Source: Zopfochytrium polystomum (taxonomy: Eukaryota; Chytridiomycota; Chytridiomycetes; Chytridiales; Chytridiaceae). Taken from it: 64,000 nucleotides of DNA. The notes beneath the pieces were generated by a model that worked only from the letters and a program-made list of their open reading frames with translations, was not told where the DNA came from and ran no database searches. Below, piece by piece: positions 3,125 through 19,789 of this stretch (position 1 is the stretch's first letter; the number at the start of each line of letters is the position of its first letter). The position numbers were made by a program, and so were the translations under genes. The stretch spans positions 62,001-126,000 of the forward strand of contig JAIVFJ010000139.1 in assembly GCA_025765615.1 (NCBI GenBank), in the 5' to 3' direction.

Positions 3125-6094
3125 ATGGTCAGCATCCACCGTAATCCCAGCTGCTACCGCAACCACTTCAACGTGCACGGCGGCCGCGTCCCACCAGCAG
3201 CAAGGGCGGCTATCTCTTCCTCCACAGAGGCCTGCGGTGCGTGCTGCTCAAGGCCACAACTCCCCTCGCCCGGCGGGCGGCTTGTCGGCGGCCCGTTCCC
3301 GTCACCGGCCGCCACGCCGACTGCAGCGGTCGTGCGGGAGGAGGGGGAGGAGGAAGAAGCCGCTTACCACGACCACCACCATGGTGCCGCGTTCTTCAGT
3401 GCCGCGGCACGACGACACACGACCTATGCGCTCGGTCGGCGGTGGTGAGTTGGGCGGGTGGGTGGCTCTGACTAGTCTTTTCCCTGAAACACAAAAACCA
3501 AACAAATACAAAACACAAACAAAAAACAAAAAACAACAAAACACGGGGAAAAAAAAAAAAAAAAAACAAAAAAAAACAAAAGGTCCTGCGAACACTGCAG
3601 AAAACGGAAGCGCAAGTGCGACGGCGTGCGGCCCGTCTGCCGGCGCTGCGCGAAAGACGGCCTCGCGTGCGTCTTCGTGGGCACCAGCGAGAGGATCGAC
3701 CCGCTGCTCGCCCACAAGCACAACCTCACGATCTGGAGCGCGCTCTCCAACTTCGCGTACTCCCGCCAGCCCCACAACAACAACTACGACGACCACGACG
3801 ACGACGGATCATCGCGCCCCGGTCATTGCCGTCCGATGCTGCCTTCGCTCGCGGGTCATTATTACCATCATCATCATCACGCGCCGTCTAGGTCGCGAGA
3901 CGACAGTTTGCCCTGCTCCGAGGAGGGGCCAGGAAAGATCCTGAAGCAGGCGACAGCCGAGGTACAACAGAGCTTCTTTTTCGATTGGCCGTCCTCTCTC
4001 ACAACCACGGTGGTTCCCATGCGGCCCGGAGCGGACTGCAGCGAGCAGGAAATCCTCGTCGGTGTGTTCTTTCGAAGGAGCATCAACGTTGTTCAGGTAG
4101 TCCACCGAATGTCGTACCTGAGGGGCAGGCACAAGGCTCCAGCGTTTTTGCAGTTGAGCTTCTCCTTTTCCACAATACTTCCTGTCCGGTCACCCCTAGT
4201 AACTTTACGTGTTTAATGACTTGCAGAGCCGCAGTCTGTGCAATGGGAGCAAGCGACGCAACGCTCAAGTCCCTGCCTCACGATGTCATGATGTACTACT
4301 ATGACTTTGCTCGGTCGCAAGCGGTGCAATGGTTCGACTCGCCGTCGTTGGAGAACCTCCAAGCACTGCTCATCCTCGCAGAGCTTTCACTCCGTTAAGT
4401 TTTTCGTGCTGTTTTTTGTAGATTTTGAATCCGCCAAACTTTCCTCTCGCTCATACTTGGAATCTCTACTACTTTTGTGTCAAATGCAGACATTGGCAAG
4501 AATGTGTGCGCTCGGATGCTCAGCGGATCTGCTTGCCGGCTGGTTCGATCGTTCGTTTGTTTCACCGTCACCTTGTTCTCTTCTTTTGCTAAGTTTCAAC
4601 ACACATTTCTAGATGGCACTGCTTCAGATTGATACCGATCCCGACGATCTGCCCCAAAAGTTCAGTGCAGTGGAAAAGGAGACGAGAAGAAGGTGCTGGT
4701 ACCTTGCCGGATACATCGAGCGATGTAATGATGTTTGTACTTGTTCACAAAATTTCCTGGAGCTGAACCAGTACTTGGCAGACAGGACTATCGCCACCAA
4801 TCGACCAGAGTGCAATTCTCACTGCAGCAATAACATGAAGCTCATGTGTTCCGACAGCCTATGGCTCTCTTTGGATCCTCAAGCCGTGAACTTTTTCGCT
4901 CCAATGGAGAAAGGCTCCCCTGTGGACGTGTTCTACTCAATCTTTGAAGTTAACCTTCGAACGATCAAGCTTGCATCGACTTCTCTGAAATCCCCTCTTC
5001 AAGTACGAGCTGACAACGACAACCAAATCCAAGACTGTCTGAACGAAATTGAGAAATGGCACGCGACGGTTCCACCAATCCTGTCCATGGACATCGAGTC
5101 GCTATCAATGAGGCTTGCGGAGTGGGCAGCTGGGCCGAACCACGAAGCCACGCCGATCCGGTGGCAGGTCGCGGCATTCTGCTTGTACCACGGTTCCAAG
5201 TTGAACCTTACCATCGGCGTGCTGTCACGGCTCCTCCCCACCGCCCTCCACACCGCGTCCCCACCCTCCCCAACCGTCGCCGTCGCTCCCAGCGCCACCA
5301 ACCCGCCACCGCCAAACCCGTTTCTCTCCGCCGCAGACCGCGCGACGCTGAACGCCGCCTTCGTGTCCGCGTGGTCATCTTCCACCGCCATCTCCGCCGC
5401 GTCCGCAGTCCTCGACCGTCTCGACCTCCCCGTTCCGACCCTCGCCGCCCTCCCTATCTTTGCCGCCGCCGCCTTCCTCGCCCTCGCCGCGCTCATCCTC
5501 CCGCACACCACCCGCGCCCCACCCCTTCACCTCTCCCCGCCTCCCGGCGCAACACCTGAAACAGCCGCATCCCTGTGTGCGCAGATGCTCGCGAGTTTCG
5601 AGCGGCGGCTGGCGGAGCGGCCGATGAACGCGGCCATGCTCGACGCGCTTGGCGGACGCGGCAGTAGCAGCAGCTCGAGCAGCGTCGCGGGCCGCAACGG
5701 CCGCGCTGCGACGCTGCAAGTGGCAGCTGTGCGGGCGTGGAGGGAGAACGCGGATCTCTCGTCGGACTGCGTGCCAGTAGCGCCGCTGGTCTCGCTTCAC
5801 CGGCTCGCGGTCCACGCCGTCGCCGTGCCCAGCGCGTCGGCGTCTCCGAAGACCATGTCCGATTCCTCGCCGCCGCCGCCGTCGAAGCCGCGCGGGGCCA
5901 CGGCGACGGCGGCGGCGCCACGGGCCGCGGCCAGCGGGGAGGAGTGTGGACGGCAGTGGGACGAGCTGCTGGACGAGCTGGAGCTCGGGGCGGTCGGCGT
6001 GGACGAGGTGTTGCCTGCGTGCGGATGTGGGCGGTTGCGGCGACTGCCGGTGGTGGTGTTGCAGTCTGAGAAAGTCAAGAGAATGCCTAATTGA
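3125..6094 (+). CDS. Zn2Cys6 fungal transcription factor (tandem paralogue)
   Basis: A sequence-specific nuclear regulator with a Zn(II)2Cys6 binuclear cluster followed by a fungal_trans domain. Proposed exons are 3125-3444, 3583-4152, 4227-4393, 4490-4542, 4613-4724 and 4782-6094. The cluster begins just after the first intron and has spacing C-X2-C-X6-C-X6-C-X2-C-X6-C (starts SCEHCRKRKRKC). The start at 3125 is chosen because only that frame joins the cluster in phase; the longer open frame from 3045 does not, so the N-terminus is uncertain. A His/Asp-rich linker follows the cluster. The intron at 4725-4781 is 57 nt, a multiple of three without a stop, so retention would add 19 residues. 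It shares intron positions with the upstream gene, which indicates tandem duplication. The C-terminus is Ala/Ser/Pro-rich. Confidence 0.88.
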
Positions 6095-10149: not shown

Positions 10150-10397
10150 TGTTAGGCGGAACTGACTGGTTAGCAGCAAGAGGCACAAGACGAACCTGAA
10201 CCTATTGTGACTGTCAGTTATGTTCTCACAATGCCCATGGGAGAGCAAGCCACCGCCAATGCAGACCTGGGCGCTGGCTTGCACTGATGACAAATACTCC
10301 GAGTATTAAGTGGAACAGAAGCCTGGTGTCAACAGTTTTCCTCCTCCTCTGCTCAAGCAGATAATATAGGAGAGGTTTTTACCCTGTGCTGGTCACA
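10150..10397 (-). repeat. LTR-like direct repeat, copy 1
   Basis: About 248 bp that recurs at 16882-17131 in the same orientation, with about 30 differences by eye, mostly transitions. The ends are TGTTAG on the left and GTCACA on the right. Read on the minus strand it contains TATATTATCTG and the purine-rich AGAGGAGGAGGAAAAC followed by TGTTGACACC. Either the whole 248 bp is an LTR, or the LTR is only 10150-10334 and the purine run is a polypurine tract. It most likely belongs to the copia-type relic just upstream on the minus strand. Confidence 0.5.
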
Positions 10398-10761: not shown

Positions 10762-12290
10762 TTGATCAGAGGTATTTGTCGATGATGGGTTTTTGGCCTT
10801 GGTAGTATTCAAATGGAATGCAACCAGTGTTAGTGTGTTGCACACGATTGTGCAGGAATGAAGCATGGCGTATTGTGTAGGACCAGAAGAACTGTGGAAG
10901 CTGGGCTTCAATCAGGAGACAGGAAGCAATGTGGGTGATGACTTTGATGGTATTTTCTGCGACACCATCACCCTCCTTGACATAAGGGACAGAAGGCTGA
11001 AAGACAATGGGCAGTTGGAGGTTGATACAGTAGGCCTCAAATTGCTGAGTATTAAGACCAAGGTTATCTGCCTGTACAAATTGTGTTTACCAAGTGGGGA
11101 AGATTTGCTTATGACAGAACTCAATGTGAGAACCAACCAGGTAGGGAAAGGAAGAGAAAGGAAAGGGAAGGAAACCTCACCCCAGCTTGGCATACAACAC
11201 ACTGGCCTGGGGAAATCATACCTCTACTAGCTTGGTCAGGTAGCACTGGCCTAAGAGGACTCCATCCCCAGCTTGGTCTTGTAGCACTGGCCTGGGGAGA
11301 AACACCAAATAGGAAAGAAAAGAATTGGTTGTTACCAAGGTAGGATTTATTGAGAGAGAGTAGATAGAAATAGAACAAAAGAGGAGAGGGAGTATTTGTA
11401 GGAAGGGGGTGGAGAGAAAGAAGAAAAGAAGGAAGAAAGAAAGAAAAGATAAAAATGGAAAAGACATAACAAACGGAGAAAATGAAAGAAAGAACAATTT
11501 GGGAGGATGAATCACTCTTTCAGCCACACACCCCCTCCACCCAGTGTCTCTCCTGCCTCCAAATTTGTGGTGAACATAATTTGAGGCTATGAGGCCACAT
11601 CAGTGCAGGGACAGTGGATTGAAAGGTGTGAAAATGAGAGAAAAGGAAAATGAGTAAAGATAAGAATGAATAGGATGAATAAGGGGTGTGCCCATTCAGC
11701 ACAAGGAACACAGGATGCTCTTTATAGTGATAAACACTAGAGCCTGTGAGGGATGTGATGAATGGTAATAAAGATAAAAAAAAAATATAGGGGGCCAATA
11801 TAATGACATAGTCACAACTGGGGAAGAGCTTTTAGGGAGACCCCAGCTAAGACCATGGTCAGTGAGATTAGGAATCTCACATGCTCTGCAAAATCAATGT
11901 GATCATTTATATACTGAGTGACACCTACTGCGCAAGCGACAGTGTTGACTCTAGTGTAGTCTGTGGCAGAGTCGACAAAAACTTCAAAGTAGTTGAAACC
12001 GTCAAGAGAAGTGTACTGATCTTGCCAGTTTGGTCGGTACACAGCAACTGCAGCAGAGCAAAATCAAAACGAGACTTGGCCATGAGGTGTTGCTGGCACA
12101 CGCAAATGAGGCAAGGCTCGCATGTTGTTGGTGGAGCAGGAGCACCAATGACGTCACCAGACTTGAGAGTGCTGCGCACTTGCTCTCAGTGGATTTGGCC
12201 AAAACGTGGTGGCAGAGGTCACATGCAGTTGCTGGTGATGCATAGGAATGGGCTCAACTGAAATTGTCCTCTGCGCAGATGGGTGCTGGA
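10762..12290 (-). pseudogene. Ty1/copia-type integrase relic
   Basis: Minus-strand remnant of a copia-type polyprotein, with frame shifts. From 12180 downward come a GAG-pre-integrase-like Cys block (TCEPCLICVCQQHL) and the integrase core start (DVYRPNWQDQYTSLDG, then FVDSATDYTR). After a break at about 11850-11090 the core resumes near 11065 with ADNLGLNTQQFEAYC, GDGVAENTIKV and QLPQFFWSY, then FLHNRVQHTNTGC before a stop near 10762. In copia elements this order is integrase followed by reverse transcriptase, but no RT block is visible between here and the repeat at 10150-10397. The relic is interrupted at 12287-12291 by the chromovirus insertion. Confidence 0.65.
11090..11850. other. Unidentified insert inside the copia integrase
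   Basis: About 750 bases separate two halves of the copia integrase core. The segment is A/G-rich on the plus strand (11140-11175, 11400-11500). It contains two near-repeats of about 60 bases at about 11180-11300, each with AGCTTGG and CACTGGCCT. No coding domain is recognised. It may be a short nonautonomous element or a solo LTR; exact ends are not clear. Confidence 0.3.
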
Positions 12291-12291
12291 A

Positions 12292-12644
12292 TGTCAGGAA
12301 CAGGGCAGGACAGGACAAGGCAGACAAGGAACTGAGAGGAGTGATGATTGTATTGGAAACAATAATTCACTTGAGGGATGGGACAGGTCCCCCATCCCCA
12401 TTTTATACCTTTTGAGAGTCTTCCTTGTCAAGACTCCAAGAAAGTTCCAGAAAGAGCAATTAGTAATACAATGATACCAATGATACCAATGACAACAAGA
12501 CAAGTCAGGAAAGCAAAGAAGGTTCCAGAAGGTTCCACAAGGTTCCATGAAGGAATGTTCTAGAAGGTTCCAGAAGGTTCCAGAAGGTTCCATGAAGGAA
12601 TGTTCTAGAAGGTTCCAGAGGTTTCCAGAGGGTGATTCATAACA
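12292..12644 (-). repeat. 3' LTR of the chromovirus
   Basis: Left-hand 353-bp LTR, which is the 3' LTR in element sense. It is identical to the right LTR except for A versus C near 12400. It holds a cluster of AAGGTTCCAGAAGGTTCC-type short repeats at about 12520-12630. The Pol stop codon (complement of 12645-12647) abuts its edge, preceded in sense by the purine run AAAAGGGGGAGA, a likely polypurine tract. Confidence 0.95.
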
Positions 12645-14954
12645 TCATCTCCCCCTTTTAGGCCTCTTCTGCAACTTGGTGGGGTACCTGGTCTTGAACT
12701 CGAGCAGAAGGTCTTGGCAGTGAGTGAGGTTTGACTCAGGCTCCCAGGTGTTGTCAGCATCTGAGTAACCTTTCCACTTAACAAGGAACTTGAGTGTTCT
12801 TCCAAACCCCTTGGCATCCAAGATTTGTTCAACCTCAAATTCCTCTTCACCTTCTACCTCAACTGGAGGAGGAGGAGGAACAACTCTGCCTGGAATGGAA
12901 TTGGCCACAAACTTCTCTAAAAGGCTGACATGGAAAACTGGGTGGATCTTCATGGATGCAGGGAGATCCAGCTTGAAGGTGACTGGATTGATTTGCTCCA
13001 GGATCTTGAAAGGTCCCAACTTGAGGTTGTCTAGCTTGGGACTTGGTCTTTTGGTCTGCAAGTTCTTCCTCAGAAGCCAAACTTGCTGACCCACAGCAAG
13101 GTCATGGTCCATTCTGTGAGTGTTGGCAAATCTTGAGGCATCTTCTTGGGCTTGCTTCAGGGTGGAGTCCAGGAAGGAGTTGATGATCTTGAGCTTATGT
13201 AAGTGTGAAGCCGCAGCAGGAGCTTGGACATTGGATAGGGTCTCTTGTCCCAGAAGATCTCCTCTTGGATTGAAGCCATAGGTTGCAAAGAAAGGAGATA
13301 GCTGGGTGCTTGAGTGGAGAGAATTGTTGAGAGCAAATTCTGCCAGTGGAAGGAGGGTGGGCCAATCATCCTGTTGATAGCTGACATAGCACCTCAAATA
13401 CTGCTCCAGAGTCTGGTTTGTTCTTTCTGTTTGTCCATCAGTCTGAGGGTGATAAGCAGTTGACAGTTGAGACTTGATTCCAAGGGCTGCTGTGAGTGCT
13501 TTCCAAAATTGAGATCTGAACTGTGGTCCTCTGTCACTGACGATTGACTGAGGCAGCCCATGGAGCCTGAATATGTGCTGCAAAAACAGGTCTGCTGTTC
13601 CTTGTGCATCTATATTCTCAGTGCAGGGGATAAAATGGGCCAACTTTGTCCTTCTGCAGATGACAACAAGGATAGAGTCAAATCCATGGGATGGGGGCAG
13701 TTTCACAATGAAGTCCATGGATATTGATGACCAAGGGCTGATGGCAATTGGGAGGGGCTCCAGAAGTCCATAGGGCTTGTGTCTGCTGGATTTGTTTCTT
13801 TGACAGGTTTCACAGCTGCTGACATAGTTCTTGATGTACTTCCTCATGCCCGGCCAGTAGAAGTCTCTGGAAACAAGCTCATATGTCTTGTGCTCTCCTG
13901 GGTGTCCAGCTGTTGCTGCATCATGCCTTGTCTTGAGTATCTCAAGTTTTTCCTCTTCTTGGCTGATTTGAATCTTGTGAGGCTTGGGGTCCTTGGAAAT
14001 AGCATGGGCCCACACACTGTCAGGAAGCAATGAAAGGTGTGTCTTGGATGGTGTGGTGAAACCATCTCCCCCTTCAGGTGCAAGGCCTGTCCTTCTGTGC
14101 TCATCAGCAGTGGGGCTTGAATTGTTGACTGGGAACTGTGATTCTTGAATCTTTGACTGAGGGTTCTGTTCTTGGCAAAGACTGTGAGCTGTGGAGCTTG
14201 AATCTTGAATTTGGACTGTGAACTGTGGTACTTGAAGCTTTGACTGTGGGTTCTGTGAACTACAGACTTGGCCATGACTGTGAGCTCTATGAGCTGTACT
14301 GGAATCTTGACTATGAACTGTGAACTGTGGAACTTGAATCTTGGCTGGCTGTGAATCTTGAATCAAGGGCTTGAGAGCATGAGACTTGGGGGCTTGACTT
14401 GAGTTTTGGGTGACTGTTCCAATTGGTGGAGGTTGGACTTGACCAGTGACCCAATCAATGTCAGGGTTCTGGGCTTGCAGCCATGGTAATCCCAGGATGA
14501 CAGAGAATGTGGGTGAGCCGAGATCCAATACTTCCAGGTTGACCATGGATGGTGGAAAGTCTTGGATGTGGAGGTTTAGCTTGGTTTCTTGGCTGATTTC
14601 CTTGAACAGAGCATGATTGGCAAAGTGGACCTTGAGGGGTGTGGATTTCTTGATGGTGGGAATGGCACAAGACTTGGCAAGGGTGGCATCAATGATGTTG
14701 CAGGATGATCCAGAGTCGATAAGGGCCTTGGTTGTGATGGTTGACTTGGGTGAGAGTTGAATCTTGACATCCATGGTGAGTTGGTGGGGCTTGGAATCTG
14801 AGGTGTTTGTGGTGCTGGTGGTGGTGATGAAACAGGGGCAGCTTGGAGGAGGGTCCAGGGAATTGCCCCTCAGTGAGCCTGGACCTGGGAGTTTGGGTGC
14901 TTCTTCCTTGGGCAGTCCTTGACAGCGTGCTCCTTGGAGCCACAGTAGAAACAC
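12645..14954 (-). CDS. pol: Chromovirus Pol: protease - integrase - chromodomain, no RT/RNase H
   Basis: The open frame of 769 codons is given from its first ATG, but it overlaps gag and lies in the -1 frame, so it is probably made by frameshifting at 14891-14897. A retroviral-type aspartic protease has its LIDSG catalytic motif at about residues 78-82 and ends near residue 170. A linker (about 175-340) with repeated PQFTV and QDSSTAH units occupies the place of RT and RNase H. The integrase zinc finger (about 344-385, ending CETC) follows. Catalytic D414 (SMDF), D474 (VSDRG) and E510 (QTER) give exact D-35-E spacing. A C-terminal chromodomain at about 690-745 (LVKWKGY, NTWEPE) is expected to target insertion to marked chromatin. 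The frame has no internal stop. Confidence 0.93.
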   Translation of the reverse strand: MFLLWLQGARCQGLPKEEAPKLPGPGSLRGNSLDPPPSCPCFITTTSTTNTSDSKPHQLTMDVKIQLSPKSTITTKALIDSGSSCNIIDATLAKSCAIPTIKKSTPLKVHFANHALFKEISQETKLNLHIQDFPPSMVNLEVLDLGSPTFSVILGLPWLQAQNPDIDWVTGQVQPPPIGTVTQNSSQAPKSHALKPLIQDSQPAKIQVPQFTVHSQDSSTAHRAHSHGQVCSSQNPQSKLQVPQFTVQIQDSSSTAHSLCQEQNPQSKIQESQFPVNNSSPTADEHRRTGLAPEGGDGFTTPSKTHLSLLPDSVWAHAISKDPKPHKIQISQEEEKLEILKTRHDAATAGHPGEHKTYELVSRDFYWPGMRKYIKNYVSSCETCQRNKSSRHKPYGLLEPLPIAISPWSSISMDFIVKLPPSHGFDSILVVICRRTKLAHFIPCTENIDAQGTADLFLQHIFRLHGLPQSIVSDRGPQFRSQFWKALTAALGIKSQLSTAYHPQTDGQTERTNQTLEQYLRCYVSYQQDDWPTLLPLAEFALNNSLHSSTQLSPFFATYGFNPRGDLLGQETLSNVQAPAAASHLHKLKIINSFLDSTLKQAQEDASRFANTHRMDHDLAVGQQVWLLRKNLQTKRPSPKLDNLKLGPFKILEQINPVTFKLDLPASMKIHPVFHVSLLEKFVANSIPGRVVPPPPPVEVEGEEEFEVEQILDAKGFGRTLKFLVKWKGYSDADNTWEPESNLTHCQDLLLEFKTRYPTKLQKRPKRGR
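13934..14432 (-). repeat. Degenerate repeat linker in Pol
   Basis: This part of pol encodes three imperfect copies of a unit of the form QNPQSK-(I/L)Q-x-PQF-x-V-x-QDSS-TAH. At DNA level it appears on the plus strand as recurring GAACTGTG and CTTGAATCTTG words. It lies where intact elements carry RT and RNase H. Its far end (LLPDSVWAHA) resembles the segment that normally joins RNase H to integrase. Confidence 0.65.
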
Positions 14955-15793
14955 AGTCCCTGCTGGGCCCTCCTTGTTTTCTCCTCTTGGCTCAGAGGAC
15001 CCTTAGGAAGTGTCTCAACTGCATCCACTTGCATGGGTTCAGGAACTGTAAGAGCTTGAGGGACTGGGGTTGGTCTTGATGTAGTTCCTACTTGTCTTTG
15101 CTTCAGCCTCTTGGAGTAGAGTCTGTTGTCAATCTTGATGGCAAGGAGAATGTACTCTTCCAAGGTCTCAGGGATGTGCAGAGACTGGGAGAGCATGTCT
15201 TGGATAGACTCATGGAGACCATCATGGTACAGCTCCATCAGAGCTGCATCATTGTATCCAGAGTCTCTGGCTAGTTGCTTGAATTGGTTGGTGTAGGCCA
15301 CACAAGATTGCTTTCCTTGCTTGATATGCTTGAGCTTGGATCTTGCTGTCCAAGATGCGTAGGGGTCTCCAAAGGTAGCTTCCAGCCCCTCCCAGAGCTC
15401 TTGCAGGGTGGTGGGTGTGCTTGGGAGAGATCTGTACCATGATTGAGCTTGACCAGACAGGAGGGTGCTTGTGAAAAGAACCTTGACTTGCTCACTGGGA
15501 AATCTTGAAGGTTGGAGAAGGATGACATTCTCCACAGTGGCCATGAAGTTCCTAAGGTCTTTGGCCAGCCCAGTGAACTTGTCAGGGCTGGGAACCTTGG
15601 GCTCTCTTGCTTGGTTGGCTTGAGGCAGGGGAAGAGCTTGATGTTCTTGTTGGTGAAGTTGTTGTTGAAGCTGGTGCTGCTGGTGAAGGACTTGTTCTTG
15701 AAGTTGGTGTGTCTGTCTTGAGAGGGCTTGTAATTGGTCCATCAAGGCTTGGAAGGCAGTTGCATCAGGGAAGGTGTTGTTTGGGTCAGACAT
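14870..15793 (-). CDS. gag: Chromovirus Gag with CCHC zinc knuckle
   Basis: A 307-residue Gag-type structural protein. The N-terminal part has a Gln/His/Leu-rich coiled-coil-like stretch (residues 20-55). A retrotransposon capsid region follows (PSPDKFTG through the SWYRSL and WEGLEATFGDP motifs). Near the C-terminus is a zinc knuckle C-X2-C-X4-H-X4-C (CFYCGSKEHAVKDC), which binds element RNA. The start is the first ATG, 28 bases after the 5' LTR-proximal priming site. It overlaps the pol frame by 85 bases. Confidence 0.93.
   Translation of the reverse strand: MSDPNNTFPDATAFQALMDQLQALSRQTHQLQEQVLHQQHQLQQQLHQQEHQALPLPQANQAREPKVPSPDKFTGLAKDLRNFMATVENVILLQPSRFPSEQVKVLFTSTLLSGQAQSWYRSLPSTPTTLQELWEGLEATFGDPYASWTARSKLKHIKQGKQSCVAYTNQFKQLARDSGYNDAALMELYHDGLHESIQDMLSQSLHIPETLEEYILLAIKIDNRLYSKRLKQRQVGTTSRPTPVPQALTVPEPMQVDAVETLPKGPLSQEEKTRRAQQGLCFYCGSKEHAVKDCPRKKHPNSQVQAH
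14891..14897 (-). promoter_or_regulatory. Candidate -1 ribosomal frameshift heptamer CCCAAAC
   Basis: In sense the heptamer is C CCA AAC, in the correct phase for gag codons CCA AAC and seven codons before the gag stop. A -1 slip enters the open pol frame directly. The X-XXY-YYZ form is the standard eukaryotic slippery pattern. I have not evaluated a downstream pseudoknot or stem. Confidence 0.5.
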
Positions 15794-15820
15794 GATGGCA
15801 GAGAGTAGTGGGAGAGGGTG

Positions 15821-15831
15821 AAGTGAATTAT
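15821..15831 (-). promoter_or_regulatory. Self-priming primer binding site (11 nt)
   Basis: Two bases inside the 5' LTR, the sense sequence ATAATTCACTT is exactly complementary over 11 nt to AAGTGAATTAT in the LTR (complement of 15904-15914). That segment starts 35 nt after the LTR TATA box, where the RNA is expected to begin. No tRNA-type TGG start is present. This is the Tf1/sushi self-priming arrangement. Confidence 0.8.
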
Positions 15832-15833
15832 GA

Positions 15834-16186
15834 TGTCAGGAACAGGGCAGGACAGGACAAGGCAGACAAGGAACTGAGAGGAGTGATGATTGTATTGGAA
15901 ACAATAATTCACTTGAGGGATGGGACAGGTCCCCCATCCCCCTTTTATACCTTTTGAGAGTCTTCCTTGTCAAGACTCCAAGAAAGTTCCAGAAAGAGCA
16001 ATTAGTAATACAATGATACCAATGATACCAATGACAACAAGACAAGTCAGGAAAGCAAAGAAGGTTCCAGAAGGTTCCACAAGGTTCCATGAAGGAATGT
16101 TCTAGAAGGTTCCAGAAGGTTCCAGAAGGTTCCATGAAGGAATGTTCTAGAAGGTTCCAGAGGTTTCCAGAGGGTGATTCATAACA
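15834..16186 (-). repeat. 5' LTR of the chromovirus
   Basis: Right-hand 353-bp LTR, 5' in element sense. It contains TATAAAA on the minus strand at 15949-15943 and the predicted RNA start at 15914, leaving an R-U5 part of about 81 nt. Short AAGGTTCC-type repeats lie in U3, at 16050-16165. Confidence 0.95.
15943..15949 (-). promoter_or_regulatory. LTR TATA box
   Basis: TATAAAA on the minus strand, conserved in the other LTR at 12401-12407. It lies 35 nt before the 11-nt segment complementary to the priming site, which supports that segment as the RNA 5' end. Confidence 0.65.
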
Positions 16187-16881
16187 TGGAAGGACATAGA
16201 GGTAGTTTGGTGAAAGTATTTCACCAGCCTTTGACTCTGGTGTGCTGTTCCCACCATTTTGGCAGTGCAGCCAGAAACGCCATCTGTCCCACTGATCCTT
16301 GGTAGATGTGTGATGTATGTACTGTAGGCCTCCTCATTGCAGAAAGCCTCTTGAGAGGGAACAGGTCATCTGCGTTAGGTCCTGGATTCCTTTTTCGCCA
16401 ATTACTTGATCTGAAGGTTGCTGATAAAGTTGTTGAATTTCGTCAGTGTCCTGCTGGTGAACATGCTGACAAAGGAGATTAGGTTGGACAACATTGTGTT
16501 GCACATAGTGATGATCGAGTTGCAGGAGAAACCAGTAGCTCGAAAATTCAGAGGAGTTGCTTGACAGTGCAGCAGTGATGAGTGGTAGCTCTACTAGTTG
16601 TTTGAAGCTGTTCTTGATGGAGAAAATGGTTCAGGAGAGAAGATGTGTGTTGCACACAATGCTTGTTGCAAGCTGCCTGTTGGAAGAAAAATTCTGAAAT
16701 TGGAATAGCAGTTTGGCACTGCCGAAAAGCAACTGTGTGCCAATTTCAGGCCGAAAATCAAAGTTTTGGTGGCGTTGTGCTTGAGGGTGTGATGTAAAGC
16801 GAAATGGAGGGAACTTAGAGCAATTTTGTCTGATGAATGGTTACGTTAGAAATATCTGTTCCTGCCTGACTTGCCATGGTG
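16187..16881. other. Transposon relic DNA upstream of the chromovirus
   Basis: This begins with the right copy of the TGGAA target duplication. It probably continues the older copia-type element, because removing the chromovirus joins it to the integrase relic. No intact frame is present. Confidence 0.4.
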
Positions 16882-17131
16882 CGTTAGACGAAACTGACTG
16901 ATTAACAGCAAGAGGCACAAGAAAGACCTGAACCTATTGTGACTATCAGTCATACTTCTCACGATGCCCATGCGGAGAGCAAGCCACCACCAATGCAGAC
17001 CTGGGCACTGACTTGTGCTGTTAACAAATACTCTGAGTATTAAGTGGAACAGAAACCTGGTGTCAACAGTTTTCCTCCTCCTCTGCTCAAGCAGATAATA
17101 TAAGAGAGGGTTTTACCCTGTGTCAGTCACG
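16882..17131 (-). repeat. LTR-like direct repeat, copy 2
   Basis: Second copy of the repeat at 10150-10397. Its termini are CGTTAG and GTCACG instead of TG and CA, consistent with transition decay. The purine-rich tract and TATATTATCTG are conserved. It may be the 5' LTR of the copia relic, but the five bases flanking the two copies do not match. Confidence 0.5.
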
Positions 17132-18500: not shown

Positions 18501-19789
18501 ATGAAAAGCAGCAAGTCGCAGCACTCGGCGCAGCCACGAGCGGCTGTTGCTCCTCCCCCGGCCGCCCGCGTTTCCCGCTTCTTCACTCCAGACCGGATCG
18601 CCCATCTGAACGAGCACGGTTTCGTCGTGATCCCCGGTGTCGTCGCAGATCCCGCCTTTTGCCAGTCCCATCGAGATGCCCTCTTTGAACAGGTTGCGCT
18701 GTGGGACCCCACGCTGACTCCGGACGCCCCGTCGCGCTGGACAAAAGCCTCGCTCCCTGCCGGTACTATCCATGGCATCGACCGTCTATGGCCGCATACC
18801 CAGACTCTCTGGGACGTGCGCCAGCACCCCAACGTCGCCGCCTGCTTTGCAGAGTACTGGGACTGCGACCCCACAGACCTCGTTGTCTCCTTCGACGGAT
18901 CCAACACGTACGCTGGCACGCAGTTCGTCGGCGCGGAGGAAGGCCTTGGCGAGGAATACAGCAGCCGGGAAGCCGCTGCTGGATTCTGGGCGCACTCGGA
19001 CCAAGGTAGACCGGACCCAAAACAGAATGGCGGAGCGGAACCGCTCGAGGGAAAGTGCTTGCAGGGCTATTTGAATCTCGTTGACTCCGACGGGGACAAC
19101 GACGGCGGGCTCGTTGTGTGGCAGGGCGGTCATCGCGCCTGGAGGGGCTACCTCAAGGCGAATCCCAAGGAGAAGGGAAAGGGCAACTGGTTGAAGTACC
19201 CTTTGGGGTTTATTCTGGAGATTCAGGCCGACGGAAGAAAGTACCTAGACGACACAGATCCGGCGAAGTCATCTGGCCTGCCATTTCCTATGCCGCGCAC
19301 GCGCGTGCGAGCAAAAGCTGGAGATATGGTTTGTGCGGACAAGAGCGGGGTGTTGTCGATCAGTGAAGATACGAGAAAGAAGGGTCCGAGTAACGCCATA
19401 TCCATCCCTCAAAATTTCTTAAGGTCTTCTGGTTTAGCAAAACGCCTCACATGAACGACGCTCCAGCTCGACGAAACGTGACTGCACCCGAAGGTCGTGA
19501 TCGTGCCGTCATCTACGTGTGCATGTGCCCCCGCAGATTTCTCACTGACGAGGACACTACGAAGCGAGCGTTGGCTTTTGCGGAGAACCGGATGACGTCG
19601 CATTGGCCGGCGGGCGGGCAGGTCAAGGTGTTTACTTTAAGCTTCACGACGGCCAAGGCGAACGGTGCCGAGCAGCAACGAAAGGTTGAAGTGCTTAGGA
19701 GCTCTGAAAAGGCAGCAACACCGTTGCGACTGTCGCCGTTGGGATTGCGACTTCTGGGTTTTGAGCCGCCCAAAGAAAGGCTGGTTTGA
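18501..19789 (+). CDS. Phytanoyl-CoA dioxygenase (PhyH) family protein
   Basis: A non-heme Fe(II)/2-oxoglutarate-dependent oxygenase; the substrate is unknown. Exons are 18501-19328 and 19424-19789, giving 397 residues. The intron (starts GTTTGT, ends TTAAG) restores the conserved distal motif: exon 1 ends AKAGDM and exon 2 begins VFWFSKTPHMND. Iron ligands are H165 and D167 (FWAHSDQG) and H285 in the distal motif. Nearby ARRN or a later Arg would hold 2-oxoglutarate. Reading through the intron gives a shorter protein without the third ligand, so the spliced form is preferred. There is no signal peptide, so it is likely cytosolic. The neighbours give no functional context. Confidence 0.88.

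Follow-up and report, generated by a model that had tools for sequence, protein, structure and literature searches.

How does a retrotransposon that has no reverse transcriptase (RT) or RNase H (RH) of its own come to bear the marks of recent mobility? The question is raised by a 3895-bp Ty3/gypsy chromovirus of Zopfochytrium polystomum, which occupies positions 12292-16186, minus strand, of the window (the whole stretch of 64,000 nucleotides that was analysed). A preliminary description of this DNA had noted LTRs with one difference in 353 bp, a 5-bp target-site duplication (TSD), and open Gag, protease (PR), D-D-35-E integrase (IN) and chromodomain (CHD), with no RT or RNase H. All of this held: the sole difference between the LTRs is A/C at 12400/15942, the duplication is TGGAA, and domain matches and catalytic residues bear out the coding content. 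The features are as follows.

12287..12291 and 16187..16191: target-site duplication TGGAA, copies 1 and 2, an identical 5 bp on either side
12292..12644, minus strand: 3' LTR, 353 bp, sense TGTTATG...CTGACA, one difference from the 5' LTR
12645..12659, minus strand: polypurine tract (PPT) AAAAGGGGGAGATGA, adjoining the 3' LTR
12645..15002, minus strand: 785-aa open frame of pol type with PR, linker, IN and chromodomain in that order, offset by -1 from gag
12687..12839, minus strand: chromodomain (Pfam PF00385, E 1.4e-15)
13420..13727, minus strand: catalytic core of the integrase with D-59-D-35-E, whose codons start at 13715, 13535 and 13427
13785..13958, minus strand: integrase zinc-binding domain (Integrase_H2C2, PF17921, E 6.7e-24)
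14096..14097, minus strand: deletion junction, at which full-length relatives have a further 1410 bp (470 codons) encoding RT and RNase H
14097..14402, minus strand: PR-RT linker, repetitive and fast-changing, with bases linked to the RT deletion
14481..14735, minus strand: match to the aspartyl protease domain, opening with an IDSGSS motif
14870..15793, minus strand: Gag of 307 aa with a capsid domain and a CCHC knuckle (Retrotrans_gag, E 2.2e-12)
14891..14897, minus strand: heptamer C CCA AAC close to the stop codon of gag, a candidate -1 frameshift site by position and phase
15821..15831, minus strand: primer-binding site (PBS), 11-nt match to the predicted RNA 5' end of the same element (Tf1-type self-priming)
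15834..16186, minus strand: 5' LTR, 353 bp, from the LTR pair comparison
15904..15914, minus strand: self-primer AAGTGAATTAT, predicted RNA 5' end, 35 bp past the TATAAAA start (sequence prediction)
15943..15949, minus strand: predicted TATA box TATAAAA inside the LTR (sequence prediction)

The ends are of Ty3/gypsy type (TG..CA LTRs, PBS, PPT and a short TSD), and Ty3/gypsy pol has the order PR-RT-RH-IN. This order is present in a full-length relative (L009) but absent here, where the pol frame runs from aspartyl protease to Integrase_H2C2, rve, SH3-like and Chromo domains, and a Pfam domain search of its 785 aa returned no match to RT or RNase H. Residues 354-701 match the Ty3 Gag-Pol chain 7q5b_A (E 1.5e-61), and in a structure-chain comparison the chromodomain also matches MPP8 and HP1-type chromodomain chains. 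The full-length partner with the same LTRs that the preliminary description had asked for does exist: complete relatives measure 5305 bp and have the LTRs, PBS and PPT of the RT-less copies, and the window copy is a complete copy minus exactly 1410 bp, in frame, at 14096/14097 (as displayed for L009). The segment of L009 that corresponds to the deletion has domain matches to RVT_1 (E 3.2e-40) and to RNase H. The proposed selective loss of RT/RNase H, with the frame open across the junction, is borne out. Element classes are ~98-99% identical across aligned stretches. Both the 320-aa and 1255-aa stretches are open in 5/6 bounded full-length copies, and these intact frames suggest that the full-length relatives are autonomous partners.

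If the RT-less form were a mobile lineage, as had been proposed, further copies with the same junction and different TSDs would be predicted. A genome-wide search found the RT-deletion junction at 285 places (<=1 mismatch; 0 for a reversed-pattern control) and its exact IN-bearing form at 70, these and the other genome-wide counts being of places and not of insertions because some copies sit in tandem arrays. Among 26 distinct junctions that were read, 14 lie in copies with two LTRs and a matching 5-bp TSD, and all 14 TSDs are different; the remaining 12 are incomplete, belong to a tandem array or lack cleanly matching ends, and partial loci were excluded from the bounded-copy set. LTR pairs are identical in 3/5 RT-less IN-bearing and 7/11 RT-less IN-deleted copies (10/16 overall). 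An assembly collapse or one-off local deletion, which would make the missing segment peculiar to this locus, can be given practically no credence against a junction so widespread, TSDs that differ, and a further place (C117) identical to the window copy over 581 bp. As a non-autonomous family would, these elements lack an essential enzyme, have many independent insertions, and have a partner with the same cis signals.

RT-bearing copies can be counted by their RH/IN boundary (353 places, <=2 mismatches) or their upstream boundary (238 places, <=1 mismatch). We dropped the idea that RT-less copies outnumber full-length ones, given 353 RH/IN boundaries at <=2 mismatches against 285 deletion junctions at <=1. 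An allelic contig with an empty site was also sought: the joined host flanks matched at 100% only on C139, in two separate pieces, and the remaining 41 flank matches listed were repeats at 83-92% (40 candidates scored), with no clean empty site among them.

The cis signals are well preserved in our aligned set of 22 copies, which was drawn from the first places listed and the best LTR matches, a sampling that favours young copies. The PBS is identical in 22/22, and its 11-nt complementarity to the self-primer was reached by 3/2000 shuffles, although the RNA start is placed from the predicted TATA box only. The PPT is unchanged in 21/22 copies across all classes (L029 is changed at the first base). 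The exact 11-mer with the candidate frameshift heptamer is likewise present in 21/22, being absent from L049, and the RNA fold 3' of this candidate slippery site was no better than shuffles (z 0.60).

We considered whether the RT deletion might have recurred independently, by repeats or via spliced RNA, rather than marking one lineage. The integrase core of many copies is missing through a second deletion that has an 8-bp microhomology (TGAGGAAG) at its join and so could recur. The RT junction, however, has neither microhomology nor GT-AG ends; the 1410 bp begins GACAAC and ends CTGTCA, ruling out a spliced-RNA origin. Moreover, the bases 7 before and 6 after the join are both at r2 = 1.0 with the deletion. 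This common flanking haplotype is, in the aligned copies, the mark of one origin, and we hold recurrent deletion to be highly improbable.

We consider it very probable, from these sequence comparisons, that the window copy belongs to a non-autonomous mobile chromovirus sub-lineage whose RT/RNase H deletion has a single origin, is mobilised in trans and has been shuffled among copies by recombination. One ancestral in-frame deletion would have taken out the RT-RNase H module, leaving RNAs that would retain the LTR promoter, the self-primer and PBS, the PPT and the Gag frame. The family probably packs these RNAs into its particles, where the RT/RNase H of full-length copies may reverse transcribe them in trans, and the family integrase may then insert the products. 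In mixed particles, template switching by RT would make the deletion an allele within a recombining population of elements; a second in-frame deletion took out the integrase core, and one IN-deleted copy once more has a full-length-type RT segment.

The second deletion, the recombination and the RT-bearing IN-deleted copies were missing from the preliminary description, and they bear on its proposal of a non-autonomous lineage that provides capsid, protease and targeted integrase itself and borrows only RT/RNase H. The lineage is recently mobile and specifically lacks RT/RNase H, but the comparisons did not bear out the self-supply. On contigs C1-C77, where completeness for exact matches is inferred from the order of the listings, 63 of the 99 exact RT-deletion junctions listed are also integrase-core-deleted, 28 are IN-bearing and 8 are unclassified; the integrase-deletion junction alone occurs at 192 genome places, and all four combinations of RT and IN presence and absence are found. 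Since the core is lost at 63/99 of these RT-less places, integrase is evidently dispensable to the RT-less lineage.

RT-less copies might nevertheless be kept for their own Gag, protease and chromodomain-integrase, supplied in cis or to a pool, and borrow only RT/RNase H. In line with such a role, of the bounded non-tandem RT-less IN-bearing copies 5/5 have an open Gag stretch and 4/5 an open pol; of the IN-deleted ones 11/11 have a pol frame free of stops, and Gag is open over its whole 320-aa stretch in 9/11. Both large deletions are in frame, as are 7/9 distinct coding indels (three of these being length variants at one linker spot). Furthermore, pairwise pN/pS in the IN-bearing class is 0.18-0.30 for gag, PR, IN core and CHD; in the IN-deleted class it is 0.09-0.23 for gag, PR and CHD, compared to 0.95 for the orphan integrase remnant of that class (L012, L022, L037-L040 and L047, which are rearranged, tandem, duplicate or unclear at the 5' end, and L034, which has no 3' end, were left out of this comparison and the next). 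When unique variants were counted, however, the contrast between the remnant (0.68) and gag+PR+CHD reached no more than Fisher p = 0.077, and the remnant did not differ at all (p = 1.0) from the equivalent stretch of IN-bearing RT-less copies; in full-length copies this stretch gives 0.56, from three variants only. Low pN/pS in RT-less Gag, PR and IN may also be imported, because recombination with full-length copies is frequent, and the copies are young, so that their frames may simply be undecayed. Neither VSDRG (second catalytic D) nor LVKWKGY (chromodomain) occurs as an exact string in one copy (L041), and another (L035) has an in-frame stop. With the integrase core so often gone, we regard upkeep of these copies for their own proteins as possible but doubtful.

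The opposite reading is that full-length proteins do all of the mobilisation and that open frames reflect recency and recombination. The dispensable integrase core and the many identical LTR pairs suit this account, as does the gag tree, in which the classes are mixed as under shuffled labels (137/200 shuffles as low). The in-frame nature of both deletions and most indels, and the uninterrupted pol frames of all 11 bounded IN-deleted RT-less copies, argue the other way, and we see such pure parasitism as evenly poised between right and wrong.

Recombination is apparent in the decay of linkage to the RT deletion: from r2 = 1.0 at the two bases beside the join, the mean falls to 0.49 over 17 sites of the neighbouring linker, 0.20 over 10 sites after the join and 0.04 over 13 sites in gag. 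Of all site pairs in the 22 copies, 1278/2346 are incompatible, and neighbouring sites are far more compatible than permuted ones (0/1000 permutations as low). L049, which is RT-bearing and IN-deleted, is a mosaic of 10 IN-deleted-type, then 15 full-length-type, then 5 IN-deleted-type sites, presumably produced by template switching; gene conversion between chromosomal copies could account for part of the recombination. A more speculative reading is that the family is a population that shares modules, its copies having or lacking the RT and integrase segments separately while using the same particles. RT-less/IN-bearing and RT-bearing/IN-less RNAs could then complement one another like a split-genome virus, the RT module being regained by recombination and not permanently lost. 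We think this unlikely, but if it were true, selective loss of RT/RNase H would represent a lasting division of labour instead of decay.

Non-autonomous LTR elements take several forms. TRIM and LARD elements have no coding capacity, and TR-GAG elements have gag as the only coding sequence between their LTRs; unlike the former, the chytrid element has open Gag and PR-IN-CHD frames, and unlike the latter it also has protease, integrase and chromodomain. None of the papers listed in searches of the open-licence literature describes a mobile LTR lineage in which RT/RNase H is the only loss, and none of those listed deals with Zopfochytrium polystomum transposons. Nor was any other protease and integrase protein without RT seen among the 120 listed of 3575 matches in precomputed Pfam domains, a length-limited and weak comparison.

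The phenomenon is known in kind, from Athila and Quinta; what is new is the module lost. As here, Athila elements of Arabidopsis without RT have spread, keep gag open under purifying selection and recombine with autonomous relatives, by which pol has also been regained; in the excerpted account those families lack pol and keep gag or gag+env, unlike the in-frame excision of RT/RNase H alone that leaves PR, IN and chromodomain, and unlike chytrid classes that are ~98-99% identical in aligned stretches and still exchanging (PMC2410132). Similarly, RLG_Quinta of wheat centromeres is a Gag-coding non-autonomous partner that shares LTR ends and PBS with the related autonomous Gypsy element RLG_Cereba, by which cross-mobilisation is proposed. 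In the part of that report available, however, Quinta (dated to 28-35 million years) has GAG + DUF1 only, without RT and INT, and the integrase of Cereba ends in a CR domain rather than a classic chromodomain (PMC11302176). Barley Sabrina, WHAM, Surya and Giselle are likewise high-copy and non-autonomous, gag+ or gag-, with a PBS conserved with the partner, but lose RT and IN jointly or all coding, as excerpted (PMC5738225). Mosaic copies are described for Onsen, from pairwise recombination of co-packaged family RNAs during bursts; these were shown experimentally, according to the sections seen, whereas the chytrid recombination is inferred from genome copies and involves presence or absence of an enzyme module (PMC5668417). 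Tf1/sushi chromoviruses share the chromodomain integrase and the pairing of the RNA 5' end (predicted, in the chytrid) with the PBS after the 5' LTR; judged by extracts of the source, the chytrid lineage differs in being without RT/RNase H and in having gag and pol in separate frames (PMC10085805).

In this fungal family the single loss of a defined enzyme module is found at hundreds of places, and the deletion can be tracked as an allele by its linkage decay relative to full-length partners. The family makes testable both whether non-autonomous LTR elements contribute proteins to a shared pool and at what rate helpers and parasites recombine. With 5' LTR-internal junctions at 659 places (<=2 mismatches), against 285 for the RT deletion (<=1 mismatch), annotation by RT only would miss about two fifths of the family.

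The element at window positions 12292-16186 (minus strand of contig C139, in an 80.16-Mb genome) has 353-bp LTRs with one difference, a TGGAA target duplication, and open gag and pol frames. Pfam matched its capsid, aspartyl protease (PR), zinc-binding and catalytic integrase (IN), SH3-like domain and chromodomain (CHD), but gave no match to reverse transcriptase (RT) or RNase H (RH) in it. LTR searches across the genome yielded pairs spaced 4952 bp apart as well as 3542 bp, and among the loci read we found the full-length partner sought since the preliminary description: five copies (L009, L010, L011, L017, L019) align with the window element up to 14096/14097 and again beyond it, with another 1410 bp in between. 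The extra 1410 bp equal 470 codons (pol frame of 1255 aa in full-length copies vs 785 aa in the window element), and in L009 they encode RVT_1 and RNase H domains (Pfam). At the join, inspected for L009, there was no microhomology, and the missing piece had no GT-AG ends. Some full-length copies have intact frames and identical LTRs.

The junction left by the RT/RH deletion occurs at 285 places in the genome (≤1 mismatch; 0 for a reversed-pattern control), 70 of them exact and followed by integrase. For the family as a whole, the 5' LTR-internal junction was matched at 659 places (≤2 mismatches). We read 26 distinct RT-deletion junctions (the first 20 places listed, a few reached through LTR matches, and the window), 14 of which lie between two LTRs with matching 5-bp duplications; these duplications differ in all 14, bearing out the earlier proposal of a mobile lineage. 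The 26 junctions are distributed as follows.

Bounded RT-less copies with integrase (5): window element, L032, L035, L041, L044
Bounded RT-less copies with integrase deleted (9): L014, L016, L018, L021, L029, L036, L045, L046, L048
Remaining 12, partial: L024, L031, L043, second junction of L029/L030
Remaining 12, tandem array: L037-L040
Remaining 12, without clean matching ends: L022, L033, L034, L042

Since LTRs are identical in 3/5 IN-bearing and 7/11 IN-deleted RT-less copies, movement has been recent.

The IN-deleted class is missing, in addition, a 774-bp (258-codon) part of the integrase core flanked by two TGAGGAAG octamers, and this second junction occurs at 192 places (≤1 mismatch). 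Among exact listed places on contigs C1-C77, 63 of the 99 RT-deletion junctions also had the integrase deletion, 28 lacked it and 8 were unclassified, and 5 of 77 full-length upstream junctions had the integrase deletion too. Ten of the 78 integrase-deletion places there were assigned to neither RT class, although two of them (C19:46269 and C40:46308) lie 258 bp after a listed RH/IN boundary and are thus RT-bearing as well. RT-bearing IN-deleted places that lie close together (two on C25, two on C36) may be duplicates.

Copies with either deletion alone, with both and with neither are present, and the 22 aligned copies do not fit one tree: 1278 of 2346 informative site pairs were incompatible, with an incompatibility of 0.074 between neighbouring sites compared to 0.544 after permutation (0/1000 permutations as low). 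Class changes numbered 10 on the gag tree, like shuffled labels (137/200 shuffles as low), 7 on the protease-linker tree and 4 on the integrase-remnant tree (0/200 for each), and an intermediate 8 on the C-terminal tree (15/200). Linkage with the RT deletion was complete at two bases, the 7th preceding the join and the 6th following it, and its mean was 0.49 across the adjoining linker, 0.20 past the join and 0.04 within gag; this decay is the pattern that one RT-deletion event would leave on a recombining background. Locus L049, which carries RT together with the integrase deletion and is bounded by a target duplication of its own (GTCAG), reads in order as 10 sites of IN-deleted type, 15 of full-length type (located to either side of the RT segment) and 5 of IN-deleted type, and appears to be an RT-less backbone that regained RT, or the product of an equivalent exchange. 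Conversion after integration is a possible source of this mosaic; since its LTRs differ at one base, the exchange likely preceded integration.

It had also been suggested that RT-less copies use their own capsid, protease and integrase and borrow only RT/RH, which is possible. Frames are mostly open in the bounded copies, and the two large deletions have lengths divisible by three, as do 7 of the 9 distinct coding indels (three of the nine being length variants at one spot). In the IN-deleted class, pairwise pN/pS (from non-independent pairs) was 0.09-0.23 across gag, PR and CHD but reached 0.95 for the orphan integrase remnant; IN-bearing RT-less copies had 0.23 for their integrase core. However, counting unique variants shrank the contrast (remnant 0.68, gag 0.35, PR 0.12, CHD 0.22; Fisher P = 0.077). 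The corresponding stretch of IN-bearing RT-less copies gave a value no different from the remnant's (0.47; P = 1.0), and in full-length copies it was already 0.56 (three variants). Moreover, constrained sequence could be imported by recombination, and of the five IN-bearing RT-less copies, one (L035) contains a stop and another (L041) lacks two exact motif strings. With integrase gone at 63 of those 99 RT-less places, this enzyme at least cannot be required in cis, and the suggestion is on balance no more than possible.

The LTR carries TATAAAA at 238 and AAGTGAATTAT 35 bp further on, whose complement lies 2 nt past the 5' LTR (an 11-nt match reached in 3/2000 shuffles), the arrangement described for Tf1/sushi self-priming in the available text of PMC10085805. 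The PBS is identical in 22/22 copies and the PPT in 21. Because promoter, self-primer/PBS and PPT are kept, RT-less RNAs are predicted to bear the usual cis signals. A candidate heptamer, C CCA AAC, in the right phase could direct -1 frameshifting to pol; a supporting fold downstream of it was looked for and not found. Their RT/RH must be supplied by another source, the simplest being full-length copies, and particles common to both RNAs, with template switching inside them, would explain both movement and mosaicism. Recombination among co-packaged family members has been demonstrated for Onsen (PMC5668417). Known examples of non-autonomous LTR elements that encode Gag and move with the help of relatives are Athila (PMC2410132), Quinta/Cereba (PMC11302176) and barley families (PMC5738225); in the available portions of these sources, RT and integrase were lost together or the whole of pol was lost, whereas here RT/RH alone was excised and PR-IN-chromodomain kept in frame. 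A literature search of incomplete coverage found no description of such excision with later separate integrase loss and apparent RT regain.

Several minor observations concern the family. At L037-L040 (G000:C6:359194-373925), four or more RT-less units with common LTRs and broken pol frames are arrayed in tandem with a period of 3171 bp; junction spacing suggests other arrays on C25, C47 and C63. LTR length varies across the family, for example 308 bp in L032 and L044, a form whose difference appears to lie in GGAACCTTCT-type repeats within U3, and 358 bp in L033 and L048. Relative to L009, the PR-RT linker has a 60-bp in-frame expansion in 11/21 copies (including L014 and L016), of 57 bp in one copy and 9 bp in another.

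Around the window element, 240-bp direct repeats (10151-10388 and 16883-17122; 90% identical), with similar stretches in L036, L034, L025 and L011, suggest that an older, different repeat may surround it. Its host flanks (11992-12291 and 16192-16491) resemble 41 other genome stretches among the matches listed (83-92% identity), and it appears to have inserted in repeat-rich DNA, as would be expected of a chromodomain integrase. Adjoining ORFs at 865-2424 and 4613-6094, without Pfam matches, look by eye like diverged paralogues with a common stretch around RTIATNRPEC. The protein at 18516-19454 is 100% identical to DFJ73DRAFT_828204 of the chytrid Zopfochytrium polystomum (87% of query covered), whose record is placed on a 417,739-bp contig vs 177,930 bp for the window contig, reflecting either another assembly or a duplicated copy.
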